64,000 bases of DNA from Rhizobium sp. BT04 (GTDB lineage: Bacteria; Pseudomonadota; Alphaproteobacteria; Rhizobiales; Rhizobiaceae), in NCBI RefSeq assembly GCF_030053135.1, contig NZ_CP125653.1, positions 310,001 to 374,000 of the forward strand, written 5' to 3'. The notes below the pieces were generated by a model, which ran no database searches, was not told the DNA's origin, and saw nothing but the letters and a program-made list of their open reading frames with translations. Every line of letters starts with the position of its first letter. The first letter of the stretch is position 1. The translations under genes and the position numbers were made by a program. Shown one piece after another: positions 2,981 to 38,388 of the stretch.

Positions 2981-3094
2981 GAGCATGACGCCGAAAAGTG
3001 GGAGTGGTTTTCGGACGATAGCATGCTTCGGGCGAGCTTGTGATCTCCTTCGCAGCCTCGCAGTGCGCTGCAGATCGGCTGTCTTTAGTGATGA

Positions 3095-3119
3095 TTTGTC
3101 TGTTTATAGACAAACAGAC
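3095..3119. promoter_or_regulatory. Nested palindromes, probable IclR operator
   Basis: Two overlapping inverted repeats lie about 85 bp before the IclR start. TTTGTCT (3095-3101) pairs with AGACAAA (3108-3114), and GTCTGTTT (3098-3105) pairs with AAACAGAC (3112-3119), each with a 6-bp spacer. The position between divergent catabolic and regulatory genes suits an autoregulated IclR operator. Binding is inferred. Confidence 0.6.
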
Positions 3120-3203
3120 GATTGGCCAAGGGTCAAGCGTAAACTTTTCCTTTTCCGGCTGCGGTTCTGCGTATATGCAGAATGTTATTCACAGGAGGAA
3201 GGA

Positions 3204-6107: not shown

Positions 6108-6851
6108 TTATTCAAGCGTTACAGGAACCGCATTGCGCGTGACTTCGGCGTGCAGAAGCTGCCAATGCGAGGTGGCGGCAAAGTGCCAGTCACGGTTGAC
6201 GGGCAGGTATTCGTCCCGGCGCAGCCATTCCAACACCAGCCGGGCGTCGTTGCGCTTGCGCTCGACGCGATTGCCGCGGATGGCGGCGAGGATGATGTCG
6301 CGGCGCGGCTTGCGGAAATGGCACTCGTCGACCACCTTGGCATAGGTGCGCTCGGAGAAATGCAGGAAACGTCCGGCAAGCAGCAGTTTCTTGCGTTCAC
6401 CGGGGGAGATCTCGCCGCCGGCAAGAAGCGCATCGATCGTCGGCTCGAAATCGACCCAAGGCACCGAAAGCGGCAGCCAGCCGAGTTCCTGCGGTGCATG
6501 CACGAGGGCGACGGCCTCGTCGTCGAGCAGCCGCCCGGCCTCGTAATCCTCGAAGATCGAGCCGATTCCGACCATGCCGAAAGGCGCGCATTCGGCTGCC
6601 CGCAATGCGCCCATGCTGGCGCCGCCGGCAACGGCGACATTATGGTCGAGCGCGAAAAGAATTTCCTTGTGCCAGACGGACGGCAGATCGCCGAAATAGC
6701 CGTCGACGAGGCCGATGGCGGTGGCGCCGTCGTGAACGGCCTTCAGGATGTCACCGCAGGCGGCCGGCGGCCGGAAATCGATGCGAGGGGACATGGCTCT
6801 CGCCGCAGCGAGATCGCTGCCAAGGCTCGGGCCGACGAACAGCACCTTCAT
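6108..6851 (-). CDS. TfuA-like protein
   Basis: This 247-residue protein matches the TfuA family named from trifolitoxin production: FVGPSLG at the start, GLVDGYFGDLPSVWHKEILFAL, and the signature GGASMGALRAAE around residue 78. TfuA proteins are partners of YcaO enzymes in backbone modification of peptides and proteins, including thioamide formation in some systems. Its start overlaps the stop of the YcaO gene by 4 bp, so the two are translationally coupled. No oxidoreductase or exporter of the known tfx operon is beside it, so this is not a standard trifolitoxin locus. Confidence 0.88.
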   Translation of the reverse strand: MKVLFVGPSLGSDLAAARAMSPRIDFRPPAACGDILKAVHDGATAIGLVDGYFGDLPSVWHKEILFALDHNVAVAGGASMGALRAAECAPFGMVGIGSIFEDYEAGRLLDDEAVALVHAPQELGWLPLSVPWVDFEPTIDALLAGGEISPGERKKLLLAGRFLHFSERTYAKVVDECHFRKPRRDIILAAIRGNRVERKRNDARLVLEWLRRDEYLPVNRDWHFAATSHWQLLHAEVTRNAVPVTLE

Positions 6852-8212: not shown

Positions 8213-8225
8213 ACCGGTCTCGCCC

Positions 8226-8369
8226 TTAGCGGAACCTCAGCGCATGCGTCAGGCTCTCGAGCGCATTAGCGGAAACGTTGAGTTCGTCATGTTTCATGGC
8301 TGCCTTGGCGGCTGCAGAGAAGCGCAGGGACTGTGTCTGAACTGCGGCGGTTTCAGCATTCGTCTTCAT
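8226..8369 (-). CDS. 47-residue peptide, candidate substrate of the YcaO/TfuA pair
   Basis: Read directly from the minus strand: ATG at 8369, TAA at 8226-8228, with GGAG (in CGGAGATGGACC) upstream. The product begins MKTNAETAAVQTQSLRFSAA and ends ESLTHALRFR. It is Ala/Ser/Thr-rich, mildly basic, and has no Cys. The stop is 13 bp before the earliest YcaO start, so all three genes form one unit. Small size, position and lack of another function fit a RiPP precursor. It has no similarity I recognise to trifolitoxin TfxA, and the lack of Cys would exclude thiazolines but not oxazolines or thioamides. Function is inferred. Confidence 0.6.
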   Translation of the reverse strand: MKTNAETAAVQTQSLRFSAAAKAAMKHDELNVSANALESLTHALRFR

Positions 8370-8475
8370 GGTCCATCTCCGATTGGTCGGGCAGCGTCTT
8401 GCTGCCGTTAACCATCGGAAGGAAACATTGCCTGCGTCATTTAAGCGTTACAGGCTTCGTTAAAAGGCGACGCAA

Positions 8476-10428
8476 TCAGGGAAGGCCGGCCAGTTGCAGG
8501 CCTTTTATCAGCGGTGCGGTAAAGGCAGGATCGCGATCGGGGACGAAATGGCGGATATCCTCGCTGCGGAAATCCGGGAAGTTTTCCAGAACCGTCCTGG
8601 CATAGTTCCCGGCCTTGACAGTATCGCCTGCCATGGCATGCGAGGCGGCCAGCAGACGCGCCGTCGCCTGTTTCGCCTTCACCGGCTCCAGCGCCTCGAT
8701 CGCCTTTTCATACTCTTCGCGCATGAAGTGGATGCCGCCGAGGTTCCAGTAATAATAATCCGGCGGTAGCGGATTGAGTTTGAAGGCCGCGCGGCTGAGT
8801 TCCAGCGCCCGATCGAAATCGCCGTCATGGGAAAGCGCGTCGGCGAAATCGGCAAGGATGTCGGCATCGTTGGGATTGAGATCCTGGGCCTGCTGGAAAT
8901 ATTCCAGGCTTTCGTCGAAGCGGCGGCGATAAAGCGCGACGAAGCCAAGCTCGCGGTAAGCCCGGCCGCTATTGGGGTCGGACTGCTGCGCCAACCGCGC
9001 AGCGCCGTTCGCCTCATCGAGCAGTTCCTTGTCCCGCATGCCGCGGATCAGCCATTCCATGCCGAGCGCGCGCGACACGCCGGCATGGGCGGCCGAGAAA
9101 TGCTCATAACGGTTGAGCGATGATTTGAACCATTTGCGCGCCTGGCGCAGATGCTGCAGGTCGGTCTGGGCGATCAGCCGCTTGCCTTCCAGGTAAAGAC
9201 GATAGGCAGAGGCCGGCGCGTCGCCGATCGGCATCGCCAGTTCGTGGCGCTCGATCGTGTCGGCGAGCGAGGAGACGATCCGCCGCGTCAGATGCGCGAA
9301 GGATTCGCTGATCTTCTGCATGACCAGCGGCAGTTCCAGTGCCCAGATCACCTCCGATGTCGTCGTGCGCGTCAGCCGGCAGGTGGCAAAGACATCCTCG
9401 TCGCGGCCCTGAATGGTGACGTAGACCGCATAGTCGAAGCTGAGGTCGAGCGGGCCGGGCACGGCACGCGAGGGATCGATCGAGCGGCTGAGGATCTCCA
9501 GGCTGGTATGCGCGGCAATCACCTTGAAGCCGCGCTGCTGGCTGAGGCCGATGGTGACGTCTTCGAGAAGCGCCCGGCCGACGCGCTCCATCAGCGGATC
9601 GGTGAAGATGCTTTCCGGCGGCAGGATGATGATGCGCGGCTGGCCGAGCAGATCGGCCGATATGCCTAATACCGACGAGCGCTCCGGCGCGGCAACTTGT
9701 GCTGCCGGGATCAGGCCGAGTTCGCGGGCAAGCGCTGTGGTGCTTTCCTCCGGCTCGGTGTCGAAGTCGTCCTTCAGCTGGCTCTTGCACTTCAAATAAG
9801 CCTGACGGGCCGCGGCCGGATCGCTCAGCCTGACATGGGTGCGCATCAGGGCGCGATAGGCCGTCTCATTGGCAGGGTCGAGCTGCAGCAGACGCCGGGC
9901 CAGCGTGATCAGCTCTTCATCGGATCTGTCCTCCGATGTTTCGATCAGCCGGGTGAGATGGGCCGAGCGCAATTCGTCGATACGCTGGCGCTCGAACGTC
10001 AGCCAGTCCTCGGCGCCCTGTGTCGGCGATTTGGCGCCTTCGAGCAAATCGCCGTTCAGCATATCGCTGTCTTCGGGGGCGAGCGGCCCTTTCCGCTTCA
10101 GGATATGGATATCGACCTCCCAGCCGTCGGCAAGCCCGATATGGGTTCGGGTCGCGGCAAGCAGCGGCGGAAGGCCGGCGGGAATGCTCTGTTCGATGCG
10201 CGCCAAGAGCTGGCGCAGGCTGCCTGCCCGCTTTTCCGGCAGCTCCGATTGCCAGAGCTGACGCCGGACGGTTTCGCGATCGAGTTCGAGATCGGCTTCG
10301 GCGGCGAGCATGGCGAGGAGAAAATAAGACTTCTCCGGCAAGGGGAGTTCCTTCCCCGCCGCCAGCAATCTTGGTCTTCCGAGCAGGCAGAGCCTGTTCG
10401 TCGACATCTGCCCGGATGTCCGTTGCAT
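8476..10428 (-). CDS. SARP-like (BTAD) transcriptional activator with TPR tail
   Basis: About 650 residues. The N-terminal part resembles an OmpR-type winged helix of SARP proteins (LCLLGRPRLLAAGKELPLPEKSYFLLAMLA, then RETVRRQLW), followed by a bacterial transcriptional activation domain (EDWLTFERQRIDELR ... YLKCKSQLKDDFDTEPEE). The middle resembles adenylate-cyclase/TolB-type sensor segments (RIIILPPESIFTDP). The C-terminus carries several TPRs (YFQQAQDLNPNDADILADFADALS and neighbours). The ATG at 10428 follows GGTGAGAACCGAG; 10407 is an alternative. It lies upstream of the peptide-YcaO-TfuA genes on the same strand after 106 bp and is a plausible regulator of them. Confidence 0.78.
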   Translation of the reverse strand: MQRTSGQMSTNRLCLLGRPRLLAAGKELPLPEKSYFLLAMLAAEADLELDRETVRRQLWQSELPEKRAGSLRQLLARIEQSIPAGLPPLLAATRTHIGLADGWEVDIHILKRKGPLAPEDSDMLNGDLLEGAKSPTQGAEDWLTFERQRIDELRSAHLTRLIETSEDRSDEELITLARRLLQLDPANETAYRALMRTHVRLSDPAAARQAYLKCKSQLKDDFDTEPEESTTALARELGLIPAAQVAAPERSSVLGISADLLGQPRIIILPPESIFTDPLMERVGRALLEDVTIGLSQQRGFKVIAAHTSLEILSRSIDPSRAVPGPLDLSFDYAVYVTIQGRDEDVFATCRLTRTTTSEVIWALELPLVMQKISESFAHLTRRIVSSLADTIERHELAMPIGDAPASAYRLYLEGKRLIAQTDLQHLRQARKWFKSSLNRYEHFSAAHAGVSRALGMEWLIRGMRDKELLDEANGAARLAQQSDPNSGRAYRELGFVALYRRRFDESLEYFQQAQDLNPNDADILADFADALSHDGDFDRALELSRAAFKLNPLPPDYYYWNLGGIHFMREEYEKAIEALEPVKAKQATARLLAASHAMAGDTVKAGNYARTVLENFPDFRSEDIRHFVPDRDPAFTAPLIKGLQLAGLP

Positions 10429-10684
10429 CTCGGTTCTCACCCCTGAAGCCAAGGCGCGCAAACGCACCGGCCAATCAAAAGCATGTTAGAGCCATAATAG
10501 CCCGGCGCATAGCGGCTCTGCTATAAAAAAGAAGAATTTTCATCGAATATTTGCATAATCGCGCGTCACTCGCGGAAGGAATGCTTGATCAACACTGTCA
10601 TCAGGATACGGTTTGCGTTCCTTGGCGGCAGGTTATTTGGCGACGGTCCGTATCACGGGCTGTTCTCGACCGAATTGCAGCCGC

Positions 10685-11103: not shown

Positions 11104-12456
11104 TCAAGCGGTCTGGAAATCTGTGAGCATGCTGTAAGAGGGCAATGTCCTGTTGGCGAAGATCCCCTTGCGGAGGAGGACGCGGTCGGAGTGCGGACGG
11201 GCGATAACCTGGTCGAGGCTCCAGGCTTCCAGGATCATCAGGTTTGCCGGACGATCGACGCCGATCGTACCGGCGTCGATGCCCATGATGCCAGCGGGTG
11301 CGCGGCCGGCAAGAGCGGGCGCATCCGCGTAAGGATGGTCGAGATGCAGGATGCGCACCGCTTGCCGCCAGGTGTCCAGCATGTCGTGATCGCCATAGGC
11401 AAAGAACGGATCGCGGCAATTGTCGCCGGCCGCGGCGACCGGAATGCCAGCCGCCTGCAATTCCAGCACGGGCGTGACCCCGCGCCAGCGCGGCGTGCGG
11501 CCGTCTTCGCGATCCTGGAGATACATGTTGACGGTTGGCAGCGTGATGATCGACAGGCCGGCATCGGCGATCAGCGCGATCGTGTCGCGCAATTCTTGCT
11601 CGCCCAGAAGCGCAAGCGAACAGCAGTGGCCACACGTCACGCGCCCCTCGTAACCGTGGCGGATGGCGGCACGCGCCACATGCGGCAGGGCATCGGCCTG
11701 TGCCGCCTCGTCGACATGTAGATCGATATCGAGTTCCCGCTCCTTCGCCAGCGCAAACAACCGGTCGAGCAGCAGGTCGATATCGTCGAGGCCTGACCCA
11801 TGGGTGCCCCCGGAGGCGCGGGTGACGCCGCCGAGCAAGCCGCCGTGGACGGCAACGATATCGGCAAGGCGGGCGCCATAGTCGTCGCGATAGGCATCGA
11901 GCGGCACGAGGCCGGCAGCCTGCAAGGTGATGCAGCCTTTCCAGCGTTCGCGCATTTCGGCAAACGCGCTCCAGGTGATTTCCGCCTGCCCCTCGTGACT
12001 GTCGAGATGGGTGCGGATAGCGGCCACGCCATGGGCGTCGGCCGTTGCAAGACCGAATTCCATCCGTCGCAGGAGGTCGTCGGCATTCCAGTGGGCAAGG
12101 CGGTCCGCCGTCGTCGCGGCGCGCGCGCCGGGATGCGTGCCGCCGGAATCGGGCGCACGTCCCATGGTGTGGCCCTTGTCGAGATGGGCGTGCGCGTCGA
12201 TCAGAAGCGGCCAGACATGGCGGCCGTCGAGCGCGACTGTATCTTCGCCACCATCGGCAAGGGCCGGCGTTATCGCAGCGATCCTGCCGTTCTCGACCAG
12301 AATATCCACGAGGGTGGAACCGTCCCGGTCCACCTCCGCACCACCAGGCGCGTCATCTGCAAGCAGCGCGACCGGGACGCGCGCCTTCGCAAGACGAATG
12401 CGCTCCGGTCTCGCCAGACGGGCGGCAAGGCTGGGAAACAGGGACAGATCGTTCAT
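11104..12456 (-). CDS. Cytosine deaminase-like amidohydrolase
   Basis: This 450-residue metal-dependent hydrolase resembles CodA-type deaminases. It shows LIDAHAHLDKGH (first metal pair, ~residue 87), RTHLDSH, DLHVDEA (~245), TCGHCCSLALL (~273) and AAGDNCRDPF (catalytic Asp, ~345). It probably deaminates a heterocyclic base. In a locus controlled by xanthine-type riboswitches, a purine-related substrate such as guanine or an N-substituted base is as likely as cytosine. It is the last gene of the minus-strand cassette, 32 bp after the LysR gene, and is followed by a strong terminator. Confidence 0.78.
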   Translation of the reverse strand: MNDLSLFPSLAARLARPERIRLAKARVPVALLADDAPGGAEVDRDGSTLVDILVENGRIAAITPALADGGEDTVALDGRHVWPLLIDAHAHLDKGHTMGRAPDSGGTHPGARAATTADRLAHWNADDLLRRMEFGLATADAHGVAAIRTHLDSHEGQAEITWSAFAEMRERWKGCITLQAAGLVPLDAYRDDYGARLADIVAVHGGLLGGVTRASGGTHGSGLDDIDLLLDRLFALAKERELDIDLHVDEAAQADALPHVARAAIRHGYEGRVTCGHCCSLALLGEQELRDTIALIADAGLSIITLPTVNMYLQDREDGRTPRWRGVTPVLELQAAGIPVAAAGDNCRDPFFAYGDHDMLDTWRQAVRILHLDHPYADAPALAGRAPAGIMGIDAGTIGVDRPANLMILEAWSLDQVIARPHSDRVLLRKGIFANRTLPSYSMLTDFQTA

Positions 12457-12488: not shown

Positions 12489-13391
12489 TCAGTTCTCGTC
12501 GAACGAGGCGAGCAGACGCTCCTGCGCGAATTGCATGAAATGGCTGCCGGCGGGCGAAAGCGAGCCGCGGGCGCGGTGGAGGATATTGAGCCGTTGTAGC
12601 GAGCCGGTTCCCGTCAGCGGAATGAAGACCAGGTCGCCAGTCGCCATTTCGCGGTCGACGTCGAGCCGGTTGAGGAAGGTGATGTGAGGCGTTGTCCGGG
12701 CAAGGCGCTTCATCAGTTCCATCGAATTGGTCTCGACGACGGGAACAAGGGTGGCGCGCGCCGGGGCAGTCGCCTCGACGACCTCGCGCAGCGACAGCGA
12801 TCGATCCGCCAGAACCAGCGGATAGAGCAGGCAATCGGACATGCGCACGGTCTTGCGGTTTGCGAGGGGATGGGCGGGCGCGACGACGGCTCCCAGCGCA
12901 TGGCGAAACTCGGCGGCGCGTTGCAGCCGGCTATCGTCCGGCAGGTTGTAGGCAATGGCGAGATCGGCCTGGCCGAGCGCAACCATCTCCGCAACAGTCG
13001 TCCGGTCGCCGACCATGATCCGCAGGCTGACCTGCGGATGTTTTTCTCGGTAAGCGGCAACGATCTCGGCAATCCGGCCCGCAGCGAGCGTTGCCATGGT
13101 CGCCAGCACCACCTCGCCGCGATTGAGCCCCTTGAGGGACTGGATCTGCGCTCGCATCCGCTGATGCGCCTGCAGTGTCTCGCGAATGTGCTGGATGAGG
13201 ATCTCGCCGGAACTCGTGAGTTTCAGGCCGCGCGGCAGGCGCTCGAAAATGGGTGCCTGCAGCTCTTCCTCAAGCTCCAGGATATAGCGGTTCACCGCAG
13301 AAGCGGCGACATGCAATGTCTTTGCCGCCTTGCGGATGGAGCCCTGTCGGGCCACCTCGTCGATATAACGCAGCGCGCGTCCATGAAGCAT
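12489..13391 (-). CDS. LysR-family transcriptional regulator
   Basis: The N-terminal winged helix (LHGRALRYIDEVARQGSIRKAA, then AASAVNRYILELEEELQAPIFERLPRGLKLTSSG) is a clear LysR DNA-binding domain, followed by a substrate-binding-type effector domain. About 300 residues when started at the ATG at 13391; the frame extends to 13454 but the longer N-terminus does not look like the family. It lies between the oxygenase and the deaminase on the same strand, so the regulator is inside the operon rather than divergent from it, less usual for LysR proteins. It probably adds a second control layer to the riboswitches. Confidence 0.85.
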   Translation of the reverse strand: MLHGRALRYIDEVARQGSIRKAAKTLHVAASAVNRYILELEEELQAPIFERLPRGLKLTSSGEILIQHIRETLQAHQRMRAQIQSLKGLNRGEVVLATMATLAAGRIAEIVAAYREKHPQVSLRIMVGDRTTVAEMVALGQADLAIAYNLPDDSRLQRAAEFRHALGAVVAPAHPLANRKTVRMSDCLLYPLVLADRSLSLREVVEATAPARATLVPVVETNSMELMKRLARTTPHITFLNRLDVDREMATGDLVFIPLTGTGSLQRLNILHRARGSLSPAGSHFMQFAQERLLASFDEN

Positions 13392-13462
13392 GATGGGTCC
13401 GTTGCCTGACGGGAGTCGGATTGACTGTTCCACGATGTCACCGCAACGGACCATCTACAACG

Positions 13463-14458
13463 TCACTTCTTGGCGAAATTGGCGTTGATGCGCCGGGTCA
13501 GGTATTCGCCGGCGGTGATCGCCTCGTATTTGCCGAGCGGACCCTCAATGACGGCATCGCGGTTTGCCTGGCAGAAGAACGGCAGGGACAGCCGGCGGCC
13601 CATATACTCATTCTCGCGCGGCATACGCACCCGGTGCAGCGTCGACTGCAGCTGGTCGTCCGACCAGCGCATCAGCATGTCGCCGATGTTGCAGGTGATG
13701 TAGCCCTTGCGCGGCGGAACATCCGTCCATTCCTTCAGGGCTGCATCCTTGCCCGGGCACACCTGGAGCCCGCCTTCGCCCTCCTTCTGGTGAAGGATGG
13801 TCAAGCAATCGAAGTCCGAATGCGCGCCGGCACGCCACGCCGTGAAGTCTTCCGGCTTGGCGCCTTCCATCGACATGTAGTGGATGAGGCGCAGCGTCGA
13901 TTGATACTGGTCTGAAGACGGGTCATGCGCCTTGGTGAAGAAATCCTCGGCAAAGCCCATCTTCAGCGCGAAGCAGGAGAGGATGCGCATGCCGAGTTCC
14001 CAGTTCTGGCGCTCGAAGCGGAGCATCTTTTCCCGGAAGCCCGGAAGATCGTCTTCGCTCGGCCACAGGTTGAGGCGGATCATGTCCGGCCGGGTGAGCT
14101 GGAAGCTCTCCTTGTTATCCGGCGTACCGGTGGAAGGGCGGACCTGCGCCTTGAATTCCCAGCCGGCATTGATGCCTTTCGGCATCGGGGTTCTCGCCTT
14201 AACCTCCGCCGGCAGTTCGAAGAATGTCCAGGCGGTGTCGAAGGCCGCGTCAATATCGTCCTGAGCGATGCCGTGATTGTAGACCTGGAAGAAACCGATA
14301 TCGACCGAGGCCTGCCAGAGTGCATCGGCGATCTCGTGCTTGCGGTTGTCGAAGTCAGAAAGGTCGATGACGGGGATCTCCCGGTCAACGGTCGTGCCCA
14401 TGCCGCCGATGGTCGCTTCCTTGGCGAGTTCCGCGAGGGTGTCTGTCTGGATATTCAT
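13463..14458 (-). CDS. 2-oxoglutarate/Fe(II)-dependent oxygenase, isopenicillin N synthase family
   Basis: This 331-residue protein has the N-terminal DIOX_N segment (EIPVIDLSDFDNRKHEIADAL, IGFFQVYNHGI) and the C-terminal catalytic domain. The iron ligands are visible as H-S-D in AGAHSDFDCLTIL and the distal His in STLHRV, with R in RLSLPFF for 2-oxoglutarate. The ATG at 14458 follows AAGGAG; the frame continues upstream to 15247 only by chance. A riboswitch-like element lies 40 nt upstream. Oxygenases of this family are linked to NMT1-motif RNAs, so hydroxylation of a purine or related base is the best guess. Confidence 0.85.
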   Translation of the reverse strand: MNIQTDTLAELAKEATIGGMGTTVDREIPVIDLSDFDNRKHEIADALWQASVDIGFFQVYNHGIAQDDIDAAFDTAWTFFELPAEVKARTPMPKGINAGWEFKAQVRPSTGTPDNKESFQLTRPDMIRLNLWPSEDDLPGFREKMLRFERQNWELGMRILSCFALKMGFAEDFFTKAHDPSSDQYQSTLRLIHYMSMEGAKPEDFTAWRAGAHSDFDCLTILHQKEGEGGLQVCPGKDAALKEWTDVPPRKGYITCNIGDMLMRWSDDQLQSTLHRVRMPRENEYMGRRLSLPFFCQANRDAVIEGPLGKYEAITAGEYLTRRINANFAKK

Positions 14459-14498
14459 ACTATTCTCCTTACGTGAATGCCGGCGAACCGGCGGTTGA

Positions 14499-14536
14499 GG
14501 AGCAATGTCCGGGCAGGGCCCGACTGCTTCTACTCC
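14499..14536 (-). ncRNA. NMT1-motif (xanthine) riboswitch, copy 1
   Basis: On the minus strand the RNA reads GGAG-UAGAAGCAGU, then a hairpin CGGGC-CCU-GCCCG, then GACAUUG-CUCC. Outer stem GGAG (14536-14533) pairs with CUCC (14502-14499). The UAGAAGC and G-x-x-AUUGCUC core is what I recall of the NMT1-motif aptamer that binds xanthine and urate. It lies just before the oxygenase ribosome site (AAGGAG), where translational control is plausible. Identification rests on remembered consensus, not a covariance search. Confidence 0.82.
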
Positions 14537-14544
14537 GGATGGGT

Positions 14545-15339
14545 TCAGCCGTTTTTTGGCAGGCTCCAGGGAAAGAGGAGCTTCTGCGTCAGGACCACGG
14601 CCTGAAACAGCAAGAGCGACATAGCGGCGAGCACCAGCAAGCCGGCCCAGGCCTGTGGCAGCTTGAACAGGGAGGTCGACAGCTGGATGAAATAGCCGAC
14701 GCCGGCTTCGGATGCGCAGAACTCCGCAACCACGGCGCCGATGACGGCAAGCGTGATCGAGATTTTCAGCGCCGAGAAGATGTAGGGCACCGCAAACGGC
14801 AGGCGTATCTGGGTGATCTCGCGGAAGCCCGAGGCGCGCAGACTTCGCGACAGCTCGATCAGCTCCGGCGGGGTTGCCGCAAGGCCCGTTGCGGTAGAGA
14901 CGACGAGCGGAAAGAAGGTGATGAGACAGGTGATAACGATGCGTGGCGCATCGCCGGCCCCGAGCACGACGATGATGATCGGCGCAATCGCCACCACCGG
15001 CGTCGACTGCACGACGACGAGCAGCGGATAGAGCGTTCGCGACAGGAATGGCGAGCGCATCATGACCACCGCGAGCGGAATGGCGATAACGATGGACGTC
15101 GCATAACCGATCAGCGCCACCCGCAACGTCGCGGCGATGTGACCCATCCAGCGCTCGAAGCCGATGGAGGAGAACGAGCCGAGGATCGCGCTTGGCGGCG
15201 GCAGCAGATAGGTCGGGATCGACAGGAGCCGCGCTGCCGCTTCCCATAGCAGCACCGTGCCGATCAGGGCCGCGGCGGTTGTGATGCCCGGCAACGCCAG
15301 CACCTGCTTGAGGAGCGCGACCGGTGTCCGGCTCTGCAT
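14545..15339 (-). CDS. ABC transporter permease (SsuC/NMT1-type)
   Basis: A BPD_transp_1 permease with six likely membrane segments. The EAA-type cytoplasmic loop is LSRSLRASGFREITQIRLPFAVPYIFSALKISI. The ATG at 15339 follows the stop of the ATPase gene by 4 bp and has GAGG upstream; the frame also opens at 15396, which would overlap the ATPase by 53 bp. It forms a complete importer with the ATPase (15344) and the binding protein (16123). The family takes up sulfonates, nitrate and pyrimidine or thiamine precursors; here the riboswitches point to a purine. Confidence 0.85.
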   Translation of the reverse strand: MQSRTPVALLKQVLALPGITTAAALIGTVLLWEAAARLLSIPTYLLPPPSAILGSFSSIGFERWMGHIAATLRVALIGYATSIVIAIPLAVVMMRSPFLSRTLYPLLVVVQSTPVVAIAPIIIVVLGAGDAPRIVITCLITFFPLVVSTATGLAATPPELIELSRSLRASGFREITQIRLPFAVPYIFSALKISITLAVIGAVVAEFCASEAGVGYFIQLSTSLFKLPQAWAGLLVLAAMSLLLFQAVVLTQKLLFPWSLPKNG

Positions 15340-15343
15340 GGCC

Positions 15344-16117
15344 TCACGCCGCGTGACGGGTGAGGAGGAGATCGCGGAGGTAATCGGAGAGGTCATGGAT
15401 CACCTTGTCCTTTGCAGTTTCAGGGCCGCGTGGCCGGCCGACGGGAACGGTGACTTCGGTCAGGATCGAGCCCGGCCGTCCGGTCATCACCAAAACGCGG
15501 TCGGATAGAAGCGCCGCCTCGCTGACGGAGTGGGTGATGAAGACCACGGTCTTCGGACGTTCGGAAAAGATGCGCAGCAGATCGAAGCCCATCACCTCGC
15601 GCGTCAGGGCATCCAGCGCCGAGAAGGGTTCGTCCATCAGCAGGATATCCGGGTCCATGAGCAGCGCACGGGCGATGCCGACACGCTGCTGCATGCCGCC
15701 GGACAGTTCGTCAGGCAGGCGTTTCTCGAAGCCGGCAAGCCCGACCATGCTCAGCAATTCACCCGCCCGCCCGCGCTCCTCTGCCGTTACCCTGCCGGTC
15801 TTGTGGCGGGCGGGAAACACGACATTGTCTTCGACAGTCGCCCACGGAAGCAGCGTCGGCCTCTGGAAGACGATCCCGATGTCGTCACGCGGGGCCGTCA
15901 CGGGCAGACCGAAGACGTCTACCGAGCCGGACGTCGGCTTCAACAGGCCGGCGATCATGCGCAGCAGGGTCGATTTCCCGCAGCCCGAAGGGCCGAGGAT
16001 CGAGACAAACTCATGCCGGGCCACATCGAAACTGACGTCGCGCAGGGCTTCCGTGCGCCCGGACCGGGTTTCGAAAACCTGTCCCAGCCTGTCGAAGCGG
16101 ATAGCGGGCATCGCCAT
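15344..16117 (-). CDS. ABC transporter ATP-binding protein (SsuB/NMT1-type)
   Basis: This 257-residue ATPase has Walker A GPSGCGKST (~residue 43), the Q-loop in VFQRPTLLPW, signature LSGGMQQRVGIARAL (~139), Walker B ILLMDEP and the switch His in VFITHSVSEA. It belongs to the nitrate/sulfonate/taurine-type importer ATPases and should energise the adjacent permease. It is 5 bp after the binding-protein gene and directly before the permease, so the three form one operon. Nothing is missing or unusual in the motifs. Confidence 0.9.
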   Translation of the reverse strand: MAMPAIRFDRLGQVFETRSGRTEALRDVSFDVARHEFVSILGPSGCGKSTLLRMIAGLLKPTSGSVDVFGLPVTAPRDDIGIVFQRPTLLPWATVEDNVVFPARHKTGRVTAEERGRAGELLSMVGLAGFEKRLPDELSGGMQQRVGIARALLMDPDILLMDEPFSALDALTREVMGFDLLRIFSERPKTVVFITHSVSEAALLSDRVLVMTGRPGSILTEVTVPVGRPRGPETAKDKVIHDLSDYLRDLLLTRHAA

Positions 16118-16122
16118 GGCGG

Positions 16123-17112
16123 TTACTCGGTTACGGCGAAGGTGCGGTTGACCACGGTTTCCGGATCGAGCTTGGCCGGATCGATGTTCTGCGCTTCAGA
16201 GACACGGCGCCAGGTTTCGGCGAGGCGGGCGGCTTCGAAGACGCCGAGGCCGTCCTTCTCCGTCACCTCGTTGAAGATCAACGGCAGCGTGTCCTTGAGC
16301 GAACCCTGGACATCTTCCGAGCCGAGTTCCGGTACGGTGGCGGTGACAGCAGCGGCAGCCTTCTCCGGATTCTCCTTGGCGAACTCGACGGATTTCTTGT
16401 AGGCGGCGATAAAGCGGGCGGCGACCTGCGGACGCTTGGCGAGGAAATCGTCGCTGGCGATGAGAGATGCGGAATAAAGCTCGAGCCCGGCTGCCGACCA
16501 TGGCAGGGCAACGATCTCCTTGCCAGCTTCCTTGCCTTGGTTGCTGTAACGCGTCAGGTCGGTCATCCAGGCGATGATGCCGTCGGCATTGCCGGTCATC
16601 AGCATCGGGCCGAGTGCGCCGGGATCGGCCTTGATGAGCTTGATATCCGCCATGTCGATGCCGGCATCCTTGAGGACCAGCGGCAGGTAGACATTTGACG
16701 ACGTGAAGGGCGACGTCGCGATCGTCTTGCCCTTGACGTCAGCGACGCTTGCGATCGAACCGCCCTTGGCGACGTAGAAGGCATGCGGCCCCTTGTTGAA
16801 TAGCGACATGACGGCGGTCACCTTCACGCCTTCATTGGCGCGGGCGGCCATCAGGGCGCCGATATCGGAAATACCGATATCGGAGGACGCGGAGGCAAGG
16901 CGCGAGATGGCGTCGGTCGAGCCGCGACCGGAGGCGATCTCCACCTCAAGGCCGGCGTCTGAACAGAAACCTTCCTGAATGCAGACGTAGATCGGCGCCT
17001 TGTCGCCACCCGGCAGCCAATCGAGCTGAAAGATCACCTTGTCGGCGGCGGAGGCGGCGCCGGCAGAAAGGGTTGCGGCAAGTGCATAGAAGGCAAGCTT
17101 GATGCGGGACAT
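16123..17112 (-). CDS. ABC transporter substrate-binding protein, NMT1/THI5-like
   Basis: The mature domain starts after a signal peptide (MSRIKLAFYALAATLSAGAASA, cleavage before ADKV). QLDWLPGGDKAPIYVCIQEGF and RGSTDAISRLASASSDIGISDI are typical of the NMT1/SsuA-like fold. The protein is 329 residues and should bind its ligand in the periplasm. The ATG at 17112 has GAAAGG upstream; a longer frame to 17214 lacks a signal peptide at its start. It heads the transporter operon about 250 nt downstream of the second riboswitch-like RNA. The ligand is probably a purine or related base, by context only. Confidence 0.87.
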   Translation of the reverse strand: MSRIKLAFYALAATLSAGAASAADKVIFQLDWLPGGDKAPIYVCIQEGFCSDAGLEVEIASGRGSTDAISRLASASSDIGISDIGALMAARANEGVKVTAVMSLFNKGPHAFYVAKGGSIASVADVKGKTIATSPFTSSNVYLPLVLKDAGIDMADIKLIKADPGALGPMLMTGNADGIIAWMTDLTRYSNQGKEAGKEIVALPWSAAGLELYSASLIASDDFLAKRPQVAARFIAAYKKSVEFAKENPEKAAAAVTATVPELGSEDVQGSLKDTLPLIFNEVTEKDGLGVFEAARLAETWRRVSEAQNIDPAKLDPETVVNRTFAVTE

Positions 17113-17333
17113 GGGTCGACCTTTCGCAATTGGTGTTCGGTTTTTAAGGACGGATAGTGATTGGCGACGCGCTCCTGGTCGAAGCCATCCGCGACAAGCC
17201 TGGCAATTGCGCAATCGCGTTTTTCAGGACGCTTGCTGCGCAGGCATGCAAAGCAACGCTGCGCGCCAAGGTGATCAGCTCCAGCGTCGATCTCTGCGGA
17301 TGTCGGGGCGAAATGACTGGTTTTTCCCTGCAT
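17034..17333 (-). CDS. Small ORF just after riboswitch copy 2 (99 codons)
   Basis: An ATG at 17333 lies 8 nt after GAGGAG (17342-17347 on this strand) and 30 nt after the aptamer, so it is the best placed start downstream of the riboswitch. The product starts MQGKTSHFAPTSAEI and has a Cys pair in QRCFACL and a charged middle part. It then overlaps the first 79 nt of the binding-protein gene in another frame, where the Pro-rich tail looks like a shadow. I recognise no family. It may be a real small protein, a leader ORF coupling translation, or the remnant of a longer gene. Confidence 0.42.
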   Translation of the reverse strand: MQGKTSHFAPTSAEIDAGADHLGAQRCFACLRSKRPEKRDCAIARLVADGFDQERVANHYPSLKTEHQLRKVDPCPASSLPSMHLPQPFLPAPPPPPTR

Positions 17334-17362
17334 TTGGACATCTCCTCGACAGATTTACCCGT

Positions 17363-17403
17363 CGAGCAATGTCCAGAACCGAGGCTCAGACCGCTTCTAC
17401 TCG
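17363..17403 (-). ncRNA. NMT1-motif (xanthine) riboswitch, copy 2
   Basis: The minus-strand RNA reads CGAG-UAGAAGCGGUCU, a short hairpin GAGC-CUCG-GUUC, then UGGACAUUG-CUCG. The outer stem CGAG/CUCG, the UAGAAGCGGUCU block and GGACAUUGCUC match copy 1 while both stems differ in sequence, which is evidence for conserved structure. It lies before the transporter operon, 15 nt upstream of a GAGGAG ribosome site. Identification is from the remembered motif. Confidence 0.8.
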
Positions 17404-17744
17404 CAGGTCTTTTGTCTCATGAATATCCGGCGTTCTGCAAGATTTTAAACGCTTCAATTCTTCTGCTGAAAAAACAGGCGAAATTGACGGAATTGAGGTT
17501 GAAGTGAACAGGATCTTCAGCAAGGTGATTGAAATAAAAGGAGAAACTCCTCTGCAATCGAGTGGCCGGCGGCTGAAGAAATAAGCGTTCTAATATTTAG
17601 AGCGCTTAGCTCGTAATTTTCTTGTCGCACCTTCAGCTTCCATCTGCATTTTCCGGAGCATTTTTCTGGTGATCGACCCACATCTGGACGGTTCCAATGG
17701 CGCGCGCCGCGAGTGATGATCGCCGACAAGCTTCGATCCTGCGA
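17404..17744. other. Intergenic stretch without recognised gene
   Basis: This 341-bp stretch is lower in GC than its surroundings, with runs such as GAAGAAATAAGCG and TTCTAATATTTAGAGCG. Short minus-strand frames run through it and into the right inverted repeat, but none looks like a known protein. It may include the promoter of the riboswitch-controlled transporter operon and degraded mobile-element sequence. Confidence 0.5.
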
Positions 17745-17807
17745 CGCTGCAAAGCGTGAGATTATGCCCGGTGTTGACCATCGCTGTCACAAGGCTTGAA
17801 TAATCGG
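17745..17807. repeat. Right copy of the inverted repeat flanking the purine cassette
   Basis: The reverse complement (CCCGATTATTCAAGCC, then TTGTGACAGCGATGGTCAAC and ACCGGGCATAATCTCACGC) matches 10953-11016 over its full length. The repeats enclose about 6.8 kb holding all the riboswitch-associated genes. nadC begins its 3' end 64 bp further right. Confidence 0.8.
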
Positions 17808-17870: not shown

Positions 17871-18770
17871 TCACAGAACCTGTGCGATCCGTTTTGGGCT
17901 TGCGTCCGTTGCGATCGCGGCTTCGAGGAAATCGAGCCCAATGTCCAGCACCGGCGCGCTGTGCGTCAGCCAGCCGACCGAAATGAGGTCGACGCCGGAA
18001 GCGGCGATCGCGGCGGCTGTTGCCGGCGTGACCCGGCCGGAGGCCTCGGTGAGGGCCCGGCCGGCGACGATGGCGACGGCTTGGCGCAACTGATCCGGCG
18101 TCATGTTGTCGAGCAGCACGGCATCGACGCCGGTCTCCATCGCTTCGCGCAACTGATCGAGTCTGTCCACTTCGACCTCGATCTTCACCAGATGACCGAT
18201 GCCGGCGCGCGCCCGGCGGATCGCCTCAGCGACGCCGCCTGATATGGCGACGTGATTATCCTTGATCAGCACCGCATCGTGGAGCGCGAAACGGTGGTTC
18301 ATACCGCCGCCGGCTCGCACCGCATACTTCTCCAGCGCCCTCAGTCCCGGCGTCGTCTTGCGCGTGCAGGCGACGGCGGCTTTGCTGCCGCGGATCGCGG
18401 CGGCAATCTCCGCCGTCACGGTGGCGATGCCGGAGAGATGGCCGAGGAAATTCAGCGCGGTGCGCTCGGCGGTCAAGAGGCCGCGCGACGGACCTTCGAT
18501 GGTGGCGATCACGTCACCCGGCTTGACCGCGTCACCATCCTGGAGATGGCGGCGCATGACGATCTCCGGATCGACGAGGGAAAAGGCAAGTTCGGCCGCA
18601 TCGAGGCCGGCGATCACGCCCGGCTGGCGGGCGGCCATGACCACCGTCGAGCGGTGATCGTGAGGGATGACAGAGCCCGAAGTGATATCGCCGGCAAGAC
18701 CGAGATCTTCGAGCAGGGCTGCCCGCACCAGAGGTTCGACGATCAGGCGCGGAAGCGGAACGAGGCTCAT
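17871..18770 (-). CDS. nadC: Nicotinate-nucleotide pyrophosphorylase (quinolinate phosphoribosyltransferase)
   Basis: NadC converts quinolinate and PRPP to nicotinate mononucleotide, the last step of de novo NAD precursor synthesis. The 299-residue product shows ALLEDLGLAGDITSGSVIP, RTALNFLGHLSGIAT, CTRKTTPGLRALEKYAVRAGGG (substrate binding, ~residue 135-155), HRFALHDAVLIKDNH and the C-terminal barrel strand VDLISVGWLTHSAP. The ATG at 18770 is 1 bp after the nadB stop. The order nadA-nadB-nadC on one strand is a tight operon under NrtR. Just downstream is a short hairpin (CCCCGCC-GAA-GCGGGC) without a T run. Confidence 0.96.
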   Translation of the reverse strand: MSLVPLPRLIVEPLVRAALLEDLGLAGDITSGSVIPHDHRSTVVMAARQPGVIAGLDAAELAFSLVDPEIVMRRHLQDGDAVKPGDVIATIEGPSRGLLTAERTALNFLGHLSGIATVTAEIAAAIRGSKAAVACTRKTTPGLRALEKYAVRAGGGMNHRFALHDAVLIKDNHVAISGGVAEAIRRARAGIGHLVKIEVEVDRLDQLREAMETGVDAVLLDNMTPDQLRQAVAIVAGRALTEASGRVTPATAAAIAASGVDLISVGWLTHSAPVLDIGLDFLEAAIATDASPKRIAQVL

Positions 18771-18771
18771 C

Positions 18772-20349
18772 TCAGGCACTCCTGGCAAGGGCGTAGGGCG
18801 GGGCAAGGACATAGGGTGGGGCAAGAGCATAGGGCTGTGTGGCGCCGGCGATCTCCAGCACTTGGGAAAGGCGCATCTGCCGCCGGTTGGCCTGGGCAAG
18901 CTTCAGCGGAAAATCGGTGCGGGCATGGGCACCGAGCGATTCCATCCGCAGGCTGGCAAAGACGGCGATCGAGAGCGCCACGATACCAGGATCGGCGGCA
19001 GGGCCGTCACCTTCGGCAACCGGCAGCAATGCGGCGATCGCCGTCTCTAGGGCATCGGCATTGCGCAAGACGCCGAGATGACGCGAGACGATCGGCCGGA
19101 CGAGTGATGCATCGGCCGGCGCCGGCAGCCTCTCGGCGATGATGGCGTCGTCAGGGCCTGCCGGCATGGCCGAGATGTCGCGTGCCGTCCGCATGCCCAT
19201 GACAGCTGCTTCCAGCAACGAATTGCTGGCAAGCCGGTTGGCGCCGTGCAGGCCGGTCGAGGCCGCTTCGCCTGCGGCCCAGAGGCCGGGCACCGAGCTG
19301 CGGCCGTTTGCATCCGTGGCAACGCCGCCCATGTGATAGTGAACGGCGGGTCGCACGGGAATGAGGTCTTTCGCCGGATCGATGCCGGCCTCGCCGCAAA
19401 GGGCTGAGATGACGGGAAAGCGCGCGGCAAAGCGGCTGCCGAGCGCATCGCGGGCATCGAGGAAGACCCTGCCGCCGCGGGCGATTTCGGCGCTGATCGC
19501 CCGCGCCACCACGTCGCGCGGCGCAAGCTCGGCGCCTGGTATGCGGGCCATGAACCGGTCGCCGCGTTCGTTGACGAGCAAAGCCCCCTCGCCGCGCACC
19601 GCCTCGCTGACCAGCGCCAGTGGCCGGCGACGTGAATCCAGCGCGGTCGGATGGAACTGGACGAATTCCATATCGGCGAGCGCGGCACCGGCCCTTGCTG
19701 CGAGCGCGATCCCCTGGCCGAAATTGCCCATCGGATTGGTGGTGGCGTCGTAAAGCCCGCCGATACCGCCGGTGGCAAGCACCACCCTTGAAGTCGGCAG
19801 AATGGCGGCACCATTCGGGGTCGCGCAGAGCAGGCCGGCGACACGCTCGCCATCCATCAGAATCCGCCGCGCCTCGAAGCCTTCGAGCACCGATATGGCA
19901 GGCGTTTGCGCGACTGCCCGCACCAGCGCGGCGACGATCGCCGCACCCGAGCCGTCGCCTTCGGCATGGACGATACGACGACGGCTGTGCGCGGCCTCCA
20001 GCCCGAGCGACAGTTCGCCCGCAGCATTGCGGTCGAAATGCACGCCGGCTCGCTGCAACGCGGCGATCGCCGCCGGTGCTTCGGCAATGATGCCGGCGGC
20101 AATTATGGGATCGCAGAGGCCGTCGCCGGCGCTGAGCGTATCGGCCAGATGTAGCGCCGCGCTGTCGTCGGCGCCCATGCCGGCGGCGATGCCGCCCTGC
20201 GCCCAGACACTCGACGTTTCTGCGCCGAGGGCGGCGCGGGTGACGATGACGCAGCGTTCGGGTGCGAGGGTCAGCGCGGTCATCAGCCCCGCAAGGCCGC
20301 TGCCGACGATCACCGTGCGTCCAGTGAGATGCCCTAGAATCTCGGTCAT
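18772..20349 (-). CDS. nadB: L-aspartate oxidase
   Basis: NadB is the FAD enzyme that oxidises L-aspartate to iminoaspartate, the substrate of NadA. The 525-residue protein has the dinucleotide site [16 protein letters not shown] (~residue 13), [12 protein letters not shown], the FAD/substrate region [19 protein letters not shown], and the catalytic HYHMGGV and [16 protein letters not shown]. Its start overlaps the nadA stop (ATGA). The last ~20 residues contain a small tandem repeat, [16 protein letters not shown], from an 18-bp duplication near 18784-18836. That tail is probably dispensable. Confidence 0.96.
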
Positions 20350-21317
20350 ATCGCCAGCATCCTTTCGACGGCACGGCGCGCAGCCACCGCAATTGCCGGA
20401 TCGACGGTCACTTCGTGGCGGTTTTCCTCGAGGGCCGCGCGGATATTGGCCAGCGTGATCCGCTTCATATGCGGGCAGAGATTGCAGGGGCGAATGAATT
20501 CGACGTCGGGGTGGTGCACGGCGACATTGTCGCTCATCGAGCATTCGGTGAGCAGCACGACACGTGCCGGCTTCTGCCTGCCGACATAATCCGACATCAC
20601 GGCGGTAGAGCCGGCGAAATCGGCTTCCGCCACCACCTCGGGCGGGCACTCCGGATGGGCGAGAACGGTCACGCCGGGATGGTTTTCGCGCAGTTGGCGC
20701 ACATCCTCGGCGGTGAAGAGTTCATGCACCTCGCAATGACCATGCCAGGCGATGATCTCGACATCCGTTTCGCGGGCGACGTTGCGGGCCAGATATTCGT
20801 CCGGGATCATCAGCACCTTCGGCACGCCGAGCGATTCCACCACCTGTTTGGCATTGCCCGAGGTGCAGCAGATGTCGGAGGCAGCCTTCACTGCGGCCGA
20901 GGTGTTGACGTAGGTGACGATCGGCACGCCGGGATGGGCCTGGCGCAGCAGGGCAATATCCTCGGGCGTGATCGAATCCGCCAGCGAACAGCCGGCGCCG
21001 AGATCGGGGATCAGTACGGTTTTCTCCGGGTTCAGGAGCTTGGCAGTCTCGGCCATGAAATGCACGCCGGCCAGCACGATGACATCAGCATCGACCTCGA
21101 TCGCCTTGCGGGCGAGCGCCAGGCTGTCGCCGACGATATCGGCTACCCCGTGGAAGATCTCCGGCGTCTGGTAGTTATGCGCAAGAATGACGGCGTTGCG
21201 GCGGCGCTTGAGCTCGAGGATGGCGTCGACGTCATTTTCGAACGTCATCCATTCGGCTTTGGGAATGACGCGGCTGACGCGCTCGTAGAGCGAGGATGCG
21301 GAAACAGGATAATTCAT
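20346..21317 (-). CDS. nadA: Quinolinate synthase A
   Basis: NadA is the [4Fe-4S] enzyme that condenses iminoaspartate with dihydroxyacetone phosphate to quinolinate. The 323-residue product has [43 protein letters not shown], the cluster cysteines in [20 protein letters not shown] and [13 protein letters not shown], and HPECPPEV. It is the first gene of the operon; two 19-bp NrtR-type palindromes lie 14-67 bp upstream. The start at 21317 has AGGAGC upstream. No feature is missing. Confidence 0.96.
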
Positions 21318-21331
21318 GACCGGCTCCTAAT

Positions 21332-21350
21332 TATGCTCTATCTGAGCATA
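21332..21350. promoter_or_regulatory. NrtR-type operator 1, upstream of nadA
   Basis: TATGCTC-TATCT-GAGCATA is a perfect 7-bp inverted repeat with a 5-bp spacer, 14 bp before the nadA start. It fits a dimeric repressor such as NrtR, whose gene ends 36 bp further upstream. Confidence 0.75.
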
Positions 21351-21365
21351 TCATAGGCAAAGAGA

Positions 21366-21384
21366 TATTCTCACGATGAGCATA
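21366..21384. promoter_or_regulatory. NrtR-type operator 2, upstream of nadA
   Basis: TATTCTC-ACGAT-GAGCATA is a second copy of the 19-bp palindrome with one mismatch in the left arm. Its centre is 34 bp from that of copy 1, and it ends 2 bp before the nrtR stop codon. Two copies suggest cooperative repression of nadABC. Confidence 0.7.
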
Positions 21385-21386
21385 TG

Positions 21387-22325
21387 TCAATTGCGGGAGA
21401 GCGGTAATTTCGTGCCTGCCAGCGCCCGTTCTTCGAGCACCGTGTGGCGGAAGCGGAAGAGCTTGGCCGGCCGGCCGCCGGTTTCGCTTTCGGTGCCGCC
21501 GGTTTCCTCGACCAGTTCCTGCTGTTCGATCAGCCGGCGGAAATTCTGCTTGTGCAGTGTCAGTCCCGCCAAGGCCTCGATGGTGCGCTGCAGTCTCAGC
21601 AGCGTGAAACTCTCCGGCATCAGTTCGAAGACGACGGGGCGGTATTTGATCTTGGCGCGCAGCCGGGCGATCCCGGTCGCCAGAATGCGGCGGTGATCGG
21701 CAAACATCGCCCGGCCGAGATTGGCCTCGGCGGCGCATCCGGCTTCGGCGACGAGTCCTGCTTCATAGAGTAGTTCATAGCGCTGCAGCGCCAGATCCTC
21801 GTTCCAGCCGCCGCCGTCGAGGCCGAAGGTAAAGTCCGCCCGGCGATGGCGGTGGTCGCGCCTTGCCGGATCGGCATCGGCCCAGGCTTTCAGACGCGCC
21901 ATGATCTCGTCAAGCACTGTCGGCCGGCCCTGCCGATGGTCTTCCCAGGGAAAATATTCGTACCAGCCGTGCCATCCCGGCCGGCCGGCACCGGACTGTT
22001 CGTTGACGAGGCCGAGATAGCTGATCGAGATCGTCCGCCCGCCCGGGATGTCGTTGTTCCGGTCGCGGTCGGCGAAGGTATAGAGCTGTTCGAGATAACC
22101 GACGGGGTGCTCCGTCTGCTCCTGCACCCATTCGCGCAGGCCCGATTGCAGGGTGCGATGGCCCATTTCGAAGGGGCCCGACGGCAGCGCATTGCCGGAG
22201 CGGATCGTCATCACGCGCGGCTCGTCCCCCGTCACCGCGACGAGCACCGCAATCAATTCCGCATGCGCAAAGCCGATCGTCACAGGGGGCCGAATACTCC
22301 GTTCCGAATGGGTCGAACGGATCAT
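21387..22325 (-). CDS. nrtR: NrtR-type Nudix-related regulator of NAD synthesis
   Basis: About 312 residues. The N-terminal part is a degenerate Nudix domain (ELIAVLVAVTGDEPRVMTIR, LREWVQEQTEHPVGYLEQLYTFADRDRN). The C-terminal part is a winged helix typical of NrtR (FTLLRLQRTIEALAGLTLHKQNFRRLIEQQ, ETGGRPAKLFRF). NrtR proteins repress NAD genes and respond to ADP-ribose or related nucleotides. The gene is upstream of nadABC on the same strand, with two palindromic operators in between. The ATG at 22325 is taken; an upstream start at 22385 adds a tail unlike the family. Confidence 0.85.
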   Translation of the reverse strand: MIRSTHSERSIRPPVTIGFAHAELIAVLVAVTGDEPRVMTIRSGNALPSGPFEMGHRTLQSGLREWVQEQTEHPVGYLEQLYTFADRDRNNDIPGGRTISISYLGLVNEQSGAGRPGWHGWYEYFPWEDHRQGRPTVLDEIMARLKAWADADPARRDHRHRRADFTFGLDGGGWNEDLALQRYELLYEAGLVAEAGCAAEANLGRAMFADHRRILATGIARLRAKIKYRPVVFELMPESFTLLRLQRTIEALAGLTLHKQNFRRLIEQQELVEETGGTESETGGRPAKLFRFRHTVLEERALAGTKLPLSRN

Positions 22326-22414
22326 TCCTGACACAGGCCGGGACGGAAGCCAATGGAAAGGAAGCGCCTTTGCGGCGCTTCCCACATCATCGAGACAAGA
22401 GAGCGCGTTTGCCC

Positions 22415-38234: not shown

Positions 38235-38243
38235 GCCGCAAAA

Positions 38244-38294: not shown

Positions 38295-38388
38295 AATCTG
38301 AGAATCGCACTTCCTCGAATCACTGTCAAGCGTCTTCGGCATCCTTTTGGGTGGTAGGTTTCTTTTGCCTTGAAAAAAGGTGAGGGAC

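Follow-up and report, generated by a model that had tools for sequence, protein, structure and literature searches.

A 64,000-nucleotide stretch of Rhizobium sp. BT04 (positions 310,001 to 374,000 of contig NZ_CP125653.1; hereafter the window) carries two xanthine riboswitches, RS1 and RS2, on the minus strand of one gene cassette that encodes an NMT1-type ABC importer and a 2-oxoglutarate- and Fe(II)-dependent (2OG-Fe(II)) oxygenase. The two riboswitches are of different aptamer subtypes, and RS1 is predicted to act as an ON switch. We tentatively read the cassette as a purine uptake-and-conversion operon in which RS1 turns translation on and RS2 responds at a higher ligand threshold, a reading that we favour but consider slightly more apt to fail than to hold.

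Two xanthine riboswitches in one cassette

A cmscan search of the whole window matched the Rfam model RF03054 (gathering score 36) to RS1 at 17407-17359 (minus strand, 42.4 bits, E 5.2e-6) and RS2 at 14540-14495 (minus strand, 42.1 bits, E 6.5e-6), bearing out a preliminary description of this DNA that had proposed two xanthine-type (NMT1-motif) riboswitches here. As that description also stated, UAGAAGC and GGACAUUGCUC are exact in both copies and the P2b stems are unlike in sequence. The ligand-contacting bases A6, A9, G10, C11, G35, A39, U40 and U41 (numbering of PMC8266621) are all present in RS1 and RS2, and the genes behind them encode the NMT1 importer and the 2OG oxygenase, for which we infer a purine role. 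At the level of sequence, RS1 and RS2 are confirmed as members of the xanthine riboswitch class; no further RF03054 match at E <= 0.001 was found in the 6.99-Mb genome. The cassette is listed below in its minus-strand order, each RNA element followed by its candidate alternative pairing.

17359..17407, minus strand: RS1 xanthine riboswitch aptamer, importer type (G12, A37; RF03054, 42.4 bits; positions 12 and 37 by sequence)
17335..17375, minus strand: RS1 predicted alternative hairpin between the aptamer 3' strand and the ribosome-binding region (Shine-Dalgarno GAGGAG, 17342-17347; folding energies and RNAalifold consensus of 11 relatives)
17034..17333, minus strand: small open reading frame (ORF) with a C-x2-C-L...R-x-C motif, overlapping the start of the next gene (99 aa here, 67 aa in most relatives)
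16123..17112, minus strand: NMT1/THI5-like ABC substrate-binding protein (SBP; PF09084, 138.9 bits)
15344..16117, minus strand: ABC transporter ATP-binding protein (PF00005, 125.5 bits)
14545..15396, minus strand: ABC transporter permease (PF00528, 87.4 bits; start slightly later in a relative's annotation)
14495..14540, minus strand: RS2 xanthine riboswitch aptamer, oxygenase type (A12, A37; RF03054, 42.1 bits; positions 12 and 37 by sequence)
14465..14502, minus strand: RS2 possible weak alternative pairing of CUCCU (14498-14502) with the Shine-Dalgarno AGGAG (14465-14469), by sequence
13463..14458, minus strand: 2OG-Fe(II) oxygenase (DIOX_N, PF14226, and 2OG-FeII_Oxy, PF03171)
12489..13454, minus strand: LysR-family regulator (PF03466, PF00126; start about 60 bases further in by a relative's annotation)
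11104..12456, minus strand: CodA-like amidohydrolase (NCBIfam PRK07583, 607.6 bits, cut-off 403; PF07969)

RS2 directly precedes the oxygenase gene, as the preliminary description had it; RS1 precedes the importer as described, but with the small ORF (17034-17333) between them. That ORF, the LysR gene and the subtype difference between RS1 and RS2 had been passed over. RS2 starts 4 bases past the permease stop codon, within a permease-oxygenase gap of 86 bases, so that RS2 most likely lies on the mRNA of RS1, and one mRNA probably carries both xanthine riboswitches. A search of 14400-17800 revealed no terminator-like site, and the sole promoter-like match in that interval (10/12, 0.6 expected) is upstream of RS1. 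The window is part of a 540,617-base contig whose nearest plasmid records are from Rhizobium, with 97-98% identity across the cassette, and the cassette very probably sits on a Rhizobium plasmid. Ninety-four plasmid records match, 41 of them with at least 80% of the cassette at one place; in R. johnstonii 3841 its counterpart is RL_RS32850 to RL_RS32825 on pRL11.

The class, its ligand and its association with NMT1 importers and dioxygenases have been described before (PMC7373994; statements on this paper, PMC8266621 and PMC6186785 refer to the accessible parts of each). That account describes 649 members, binding of xanthine at about 3.7 uM and urate at about 25 uM, and downstream genes for pcbC-like dioxygenases, NMT1 and tauA transporters and PRK12393 amidohydrolases; it states that the functions of the dioxygenases are not established, describes the regulatory logic as not readily apparent, and rejects the thiamin role suggested by the NMT1 name, which we likewise dropped. 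RS1 and RS2 share with the published class the aptamer consensus, a score over the curated cut-off and the kinds of downstream gene, but here one operon holds two copies of subtypes differing at positions 12 and 37, and RS1 is predicted to be ON whereas the class is reported as OFF. Two class copies at one purine locus are also found in the divergent NMT1-motif pair of Hydrogenophaga (PMC7373994); that pair faces opposite ways, whereas RS1 and RS2 share one strand, with the second lying within the operon. What we add is the link between aptamer subtype and downstream gene, a predicted ON mechanism for RS1, and the small CxxC ORF.

Aptamer subtypes tend to follow the downstream gene

A relaxed aptamer pattern, applied to all loci gathered to that point and numbered as in the crystal structure (PMC8266621), gave 184 distinct riboswitches, 14 of which were left out of the subtype table because they had no recognised next gene. 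The pattern demands positions 2-11 (with choices at 3 and 7), 14, 15 and 39-45 (with a choice at 43); since it required those bases, the invariance of the core at most other positions is not a finding, and copies deviating at required positions (for example L177, L178 and L181-L185) are missed. Position 12 was G in 92 of the 97 copies preceding a binding-protein, amidohydrolase or Rieske gene, and was not G in 44 of the 73 oxygenase-first copies (33 A, 10 U, 1 C) compared with 5/97 others. U37 was present in 33/73 oxygenase-first copies and 1/97 others, and 30 of 33 U37 copies were also non-G12. The two groups differed at position 34 as well (Fisher 5e-6; counts and p-values in this comparison ignore phylogeny, that is, kinship among copies), and positions 13, 16, 33 and 38 were variable in both with no clear difference. 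The pattern places no demand on positions 35 and 36, and they were G in 97 and 97 of the 97 and in 72 and 73 of the 73. The 14-37 pair is the middle pair of P2a and is broken by U37 if position 14 is U; in L177, L178 and L181 position 14 is G, hence a G-U pair with U37 is possible.

At the 34 loci with both kinds of copy, a G12 copy before the first kind of gene accompanied a non-G12 oxygenase copy in 26, both copies had G in six and neither in two, and the reverse arrangement did not occur. Collapsing 32 two-kind loci to 13 oxygenase clusters, each judged by its first member, left 11 G12 to non-G12, two alike and none reversed. The window fits this rule, with G12 in RS1, A12 in RS2 and A37 in both. 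Among later-gathered loci, eight of nine new oxygenase-first copies were non-G12 with U37 (L180 is G12/A37), and G12/A37 was seen in each of the four SBP-first partners, which lie about 4.3 kb off, score under the cut-off and are divergent in other respects. The SBP-first copies of L182-L185 score 29-33 bits, below the cut-off, with core changes at 15 and 35, and the oxygenase copy of the same genomes scores 42-51 bits. With Infernal, both copies passed the curated cut-off in 17 of the 18 loci tried, and only one did in L060.

In the crystallised aptamer, G12A lowered xanthine affinity 7-fold, and G12 and C34 are termed not highly conserved (PMC8266621). The oxygenase often has a riboswitch of its own, and this copy is a recurrent subtype, possibly a weaker binder than the importer copy. 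Our search of the xanthine-riboswitch literature, supplements aside, found no report of a gene-linked subtype or of an ON reading. In a separate arrangement, a single oxygenase gene is preceded by two tandem xanthine riboswitches spaced about 210-260 bases apart in L061 (minus strand, 2936-3236), L111 (2760-3060) and L028 (minus strand, from 476 and 689).

RS1 is predicted to be an ON switch

Folding of RS1 pairs the conserved aptamer 3' half plus GACGG with CUGUCGAG...GAUGUCC, covering the Shine-Dalgarno GAGGAG. RNAalifold picks this hairpin as the consensus of 11 relatives, and across 10 distinct sequences 95.7% of its cells pair, falling to 31-51% when it is slid by 1-3 columns. In an ensemble calculation over 133 copies in 58 clusters, the ribosome site was predicted to be more accessible with the aptamer formed in 39 clusters, less accessible in eight and flat in 11. 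Bound-minus-apo accessibility in the RS1 clade was 17.3 log2 versus 4.8 in spacer shuffles (8 copies), and the RS2 clade changed by 3.8 log2 versus 0.4 (8 copies). An excess over spacer shuffles was seen in 13 of 16 clusters, hand-chosen from 32, and was missing in L031, L044 and the Paracoccus pair L070/L092. Overall, riboswitch-linked ribosome sites paired better with the aptamer strand than did 516 other sites (47 clusters, Wilcoxon 5e-4; three starts set by hand, one listed id unchanged, two copies left out), the RS1 clade giving z -2.88. From these models we predict that ligand turns RS1 translation on, contrary to the published OFF assignment, and we lean towards ON for the oxygenase-clade riboswitches too. 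A CUCC/GGAG pairing is predicted in the relatives L014, L026, L053, L059, L085 and L089, but not in the window RS2, where the alternative pairing would enclose a GCCGG-UUCG-CCGGC hairpin (14479-14492) and is not favoured by folding. RNAalifold on the RS2 alignment found the aptamer and no sequestering helix, an outcome due in part to misaligned ribosome sites.

The site set dropped 5/129 distinct sites near a locus end and 4/124 without the P1 GAG. L067 was left out of alignment A1, and L027, L093, L115 and L128 out of A3, for their different register; L019 is absent from both. Automatic start choices were partly wrong in the first helix test, the 32-cluster set, the flank shuffles, the 516-site comparison and the 58-cluster ensemble. 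The first helix test, which leaves out 30/120 sites without a usable start, was weak, its value being reached by 52/5000 permutations.

A number of results count against an ON switch at RS1 and a higher threshold at RS2. The RS1 minimum free energy is -39.7 kcal/mol, and -24.5 with the aptamer enforced; this gap of 15 kcal/mol in favour of the hairpin means that the model depends on kinetic control, with the choice made while the RNA is being transcribed. Covariation is thin: the sequestering helix of RS1 has one double change only, matched by 42/500 shuffles. Some of the ON signal is inherent, since any GGAG is complementary to the conserved GCUC. The window RS1 alone gave 15.1 log2 versus 5.6 in spacer shuffles (p 0.066), the window RS2 showed no predicted switching (log2 -0.72 versus -0.90), and the RS2-clade ribosome site was unremarkable among the 516 other sites (z -0.15). 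Two Paracoccus copies with an RS1-like hairpin were mixed (-2.94 and +2.35 log2), and the flank-shuffle test over 48 clusters was weak (Stouffer -1.72). As to the threshold, G12 is kept in 29/73 oxygenase-first copies, and the 7-fold loss was measured in the Ideonella aptamer with a U13-A38 pair (PMC8266621), whereas RS2 has G13-C38.

In the beta-proteobacterial oxygenase copies L137, L141 and L143, CUUCAAGAGC perfectly complements the aptamer-end GCUCUUGAAG well before the gene start, and the expression platform of these copies may, by sequence, be a different one.

A small cysteine-motif ORF follows RS1

The small ORF begins at 17333 and has 67 codons in most relatives; the 99-aa form with its overlap of the SBP start occurs in the window and a few others. 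In seven sequences (L006 was left out for an indel) pN/pS was 0.48 in frame versus 0.85 and 1.42 in the other frames. In loci of Paracoccus, Salipiger and Alloyangia, where identity is about 30%, the cysteine motif is kept. Across six frames of the loci the motif occurred 22 times, 18 of them (12 distinct; some of these loci are duplicates of one strain) at most 420 bases after a riboswitch, where 0.9 were expected, and four elsewhere. The ORF has no Pfam match above the cut-offs, and the 14 proteins found for it have no Pfam domain and only hypothetical or uncharacterised names. One plasmid record annotates a 67-aa hypothetical protein at the site. An alternative start 8 bases before the ORF was dropped, its frame being broken in relatives.

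Importer, oxygenase and CodA-like protein

The preliminary identifications of importer and oxygenase were supported by their domains. The importer is of NMT1/THI5-like ABC type, a PF09084 SBP with a PF00005 ATPase and a PF00528 permease. The best solved relative of the oxygenase is thymine dioxygenase 5c3p (116.7 bits over residues 28-328); the two share the domain make-up and Fe(II) triad of isopenicillin-N-synthase-like 2OG oxygenases, but the window protein is distant in sequence from 5c3p and its operon context is purine. H213, D215, H275 and R289 are invariant in 40 aligned relatives, and from family knowledge and the 5c3p alignment we take the first three to be the HxD...H iron triad and R289 the 2OG-binding Arg. 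The family is tight, with 39 relatives 56-94% identical to the window protein. Outside the Proteobacteria, where the riboswitch is known, a Streptomyces plasmid oxygenase (H87; NZ_CP108387.1, 52171-53136) is 58.7% identical to it.

XanA is a fungal 2OG xanthine hydroxylase of TauD type, and the chemistry would be the same if the window oxygenase acts on xanthine. Homology to XanA was dropped, since Pfam gives only DIOX_N and 2OG-FeII_Oxy and no TauD match. The genome encodes a full-length molybdenum-type XdhB (1368.9 bits; of the Xdh subunits only this one was searched), which leaves room for xanthine oxidation by a route other than the oxygenase, and we dropped the idea that the oxygenase is the cell's sole one. 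The earlier suggestion of a non-molybdenum route is weakened in so far as it implies a need for one.

The amidohydrolase scores well above the PRK07583 cut-off, in keeping with its earlier description as a CodA-like deaminase. Aligned to 4r7w (79.5 bits), it has Asp-Asn where 4r7w has Asp-Ser. The second active-site Asp of CodA is Asp315 in the numbering of PMC6186785, and the window protein has Asn at this place, as judged through the 4r7w alignment and the text of that paper, with CodA itself outside the alignment. With Asp-Asn in place of the two Asp of CodA-type cytosine deaminases, the label 'cytosine deaminase' is doubtful, and by sequence the protein is a probable aminopurine or pyrimidine deaminase. 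E. coli CodA converts isoguanine into xanthine.

Gene company and spread of the class

Gene company was scored in at least 105 riboswitch loci of up to 8 kb each from the named-genome scan, with score thresholds that we set ourselves. Of the 105 loci listed, 62 have the window-type oxygenase and 45 a PRK12393-like amidohydrolase. A binding protein is present as the window type in 41 loci and as the enterobacterial type in 20, while 11 loci have the window-type CodA-like protein and five a Rieske protein. No listed locus has both CodA-like and PRK12393-like proteins, or both oxygenase and Rieske protein; because the loci are partial and related, these mutual exclusions are only suggestive. Relatives of the PRK12393 protein produce xanthine from guanine and urate from 8-oxoguanine (PMC6186785), and by sequence the gene company fits a deamination step plus a purine oxidation step. 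In a set of 150 relatives that includes this genome itself, eight carry the class, always as exactly two copies. In two of the eight, G101 (by pattern) and G110 (by position), which belong to other families, the second copy again stands directly before the oxygenase despite an amidohydrolase gene upstream of that copy. In several gamma-proteobacterial loci the oxygenase is divergent with a riboswitch copy of its own. A phylum-wide draw found the class in 17/398 genomes, 12 of the 17 with at least two copies; genome searches at class level yielded few more (2/385 and 4/369, L171 and L172 of the latter four being below the cut-off and probably chance).

Elsewhere in the window, just upstream of the cassette on the same strand, lie nadC, nadB-like and nadA genes with an NrtR winged-helix-domain protein (17871-22385). 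A YcaO-domain protein beside a BTAD/TPR regulator lies downstream (6848-10467), the BTAD regulator being kept in two plasmid relatives. A Rhizobium-type plasmid replication region is marked by a ctRNA_p42d antisense RNA and an S-element (38238-38391).

Proposed mechanism and alternatives

In the mechanism we propose, the RS1 hairpin would hide the small-ORF ribosome-binding site at low xanthine, which would lower importer translation through the overlapping reading frames. Ligand caught during transcription would keep the RS1 P1 closed and let translation start. RS2, whose position-12 substitution weakened binding about 7-fold in the crystallised aptamer, would respond only at higher ligand levels and so release the oxygenase at a later stage; that RS2 is itself ON is guessed from its clade. 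The importer would bring in a purine, the CodA-like enzyme would probably deaminate an aminopurine towards xanthine, and the oxygenase would act on a purine of the same pathway.

The most serious alternative is that both riboswitches are OFF as published, xanthine or urate repressing import and purine oxidation and so preventing product build-up. We regard this as distinctly less probable than the ON mechanism, though far from negligible: a Hydrogenophaga wild-type reporter was dimmer in E. coli than its binding-dead mutant (PMC7373994), the crystal paper repeats OFF (PMC8266621), and eight of the 58 clusters are predicted OFF by folding, including the beta-proteobacterial L031 (log2 -3.70). 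The reporter result comes from one member and one point mutant, however, and the assay methods in the accessible text name no added xanthine (PMC7373994). In RS1 the aptamer strand is itself the predicted blocker of the ribosome site, which argues for ON, and the 39 clusters predicted ON include the three beta SBP-first clusters L136-, L139- and L143+, whose divergent layout matches that reported for Hydrogenophaga. Alternatively, the oxygenase-type aptamer might differ in ligand preference (for instance for urate or another oxidised purine, perhaps the oxygenase's substrate or product) instead of threshold. The sequence change is recurrent and gene-linked, and natural aptamers of the class bind urate as well as xanthine (PMC7373994), but positions 12 and 37 are second shell, RS1 and RS2 share the bases that touch xanthine (G10, U40 and the stacking triples), and the single measured position-12 change is described as an affinity loss (PMC8266621), which makes a change of preference unlikely.

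We consider it equally unlikely that the subtype difference is an accident of descent, in which two old paralogous copies have drifted and behave alike. Both copies do look old and co-inherited, the p-values ignore phylogeny, and the described low conservation of G12 and C34 (PMC8266621) would suit drift; yet non-G12 is A, U or C in different lineages, the oxygenase copy of the beta loci L137, L141 and L143 keeps G12 but has U37, and the near-invariant G at the unconstrained positions 35 and 36 (72 and 73 of 73 oxygenase-first copies) argues against decay. More improbable still is an operon that serves some other compound, for example a pyrimidine or methylated base, with xanthine merely signalling purine status. 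The thymine dioxygenase relationship, the cytosine deaminase name and XdhB in the genome would suit such an operon, but the amidohydrolase elsewhere is of PRK12393 type near 8-oxoguanine deaminase, with kin that make xanthine and urate (PMC6186785), and the Rieske protein that replaces the oxygenase in five of the 105 loci listed is of a kind linked to purine oxidation in Klebsiella (PMC7373994).

Implications

The pairing of subtypes in one operon suggests, by sequence, a testable two-step response of importer and then oxygenase, and the natural riboswitch pairs serve as built-in controls for both the subtype and the ON predictions. The gene-linked subtype and the predicted ON mechanism give testable answers to the questions of dioxygenase substrates and regulatory logic left open in PMC7373994, and the work draws attention to a small unstudied protein and, for substrate studies, to a tight family of oxygenases. 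A broader proposal, which we think doubtful, is that the class comprises two functional subclasses, one for importers and deaminases and a second-shell-substituted one for oxygenases, both ON with staggered thresholds, the first gating the new CxxC small protein in Rhizobium and some Rhodobacterales; if true, the published OFF view would be wrong for many class members. Should the subtypes differ in threshold, a single operon would order its steps by two aptamers of one class.

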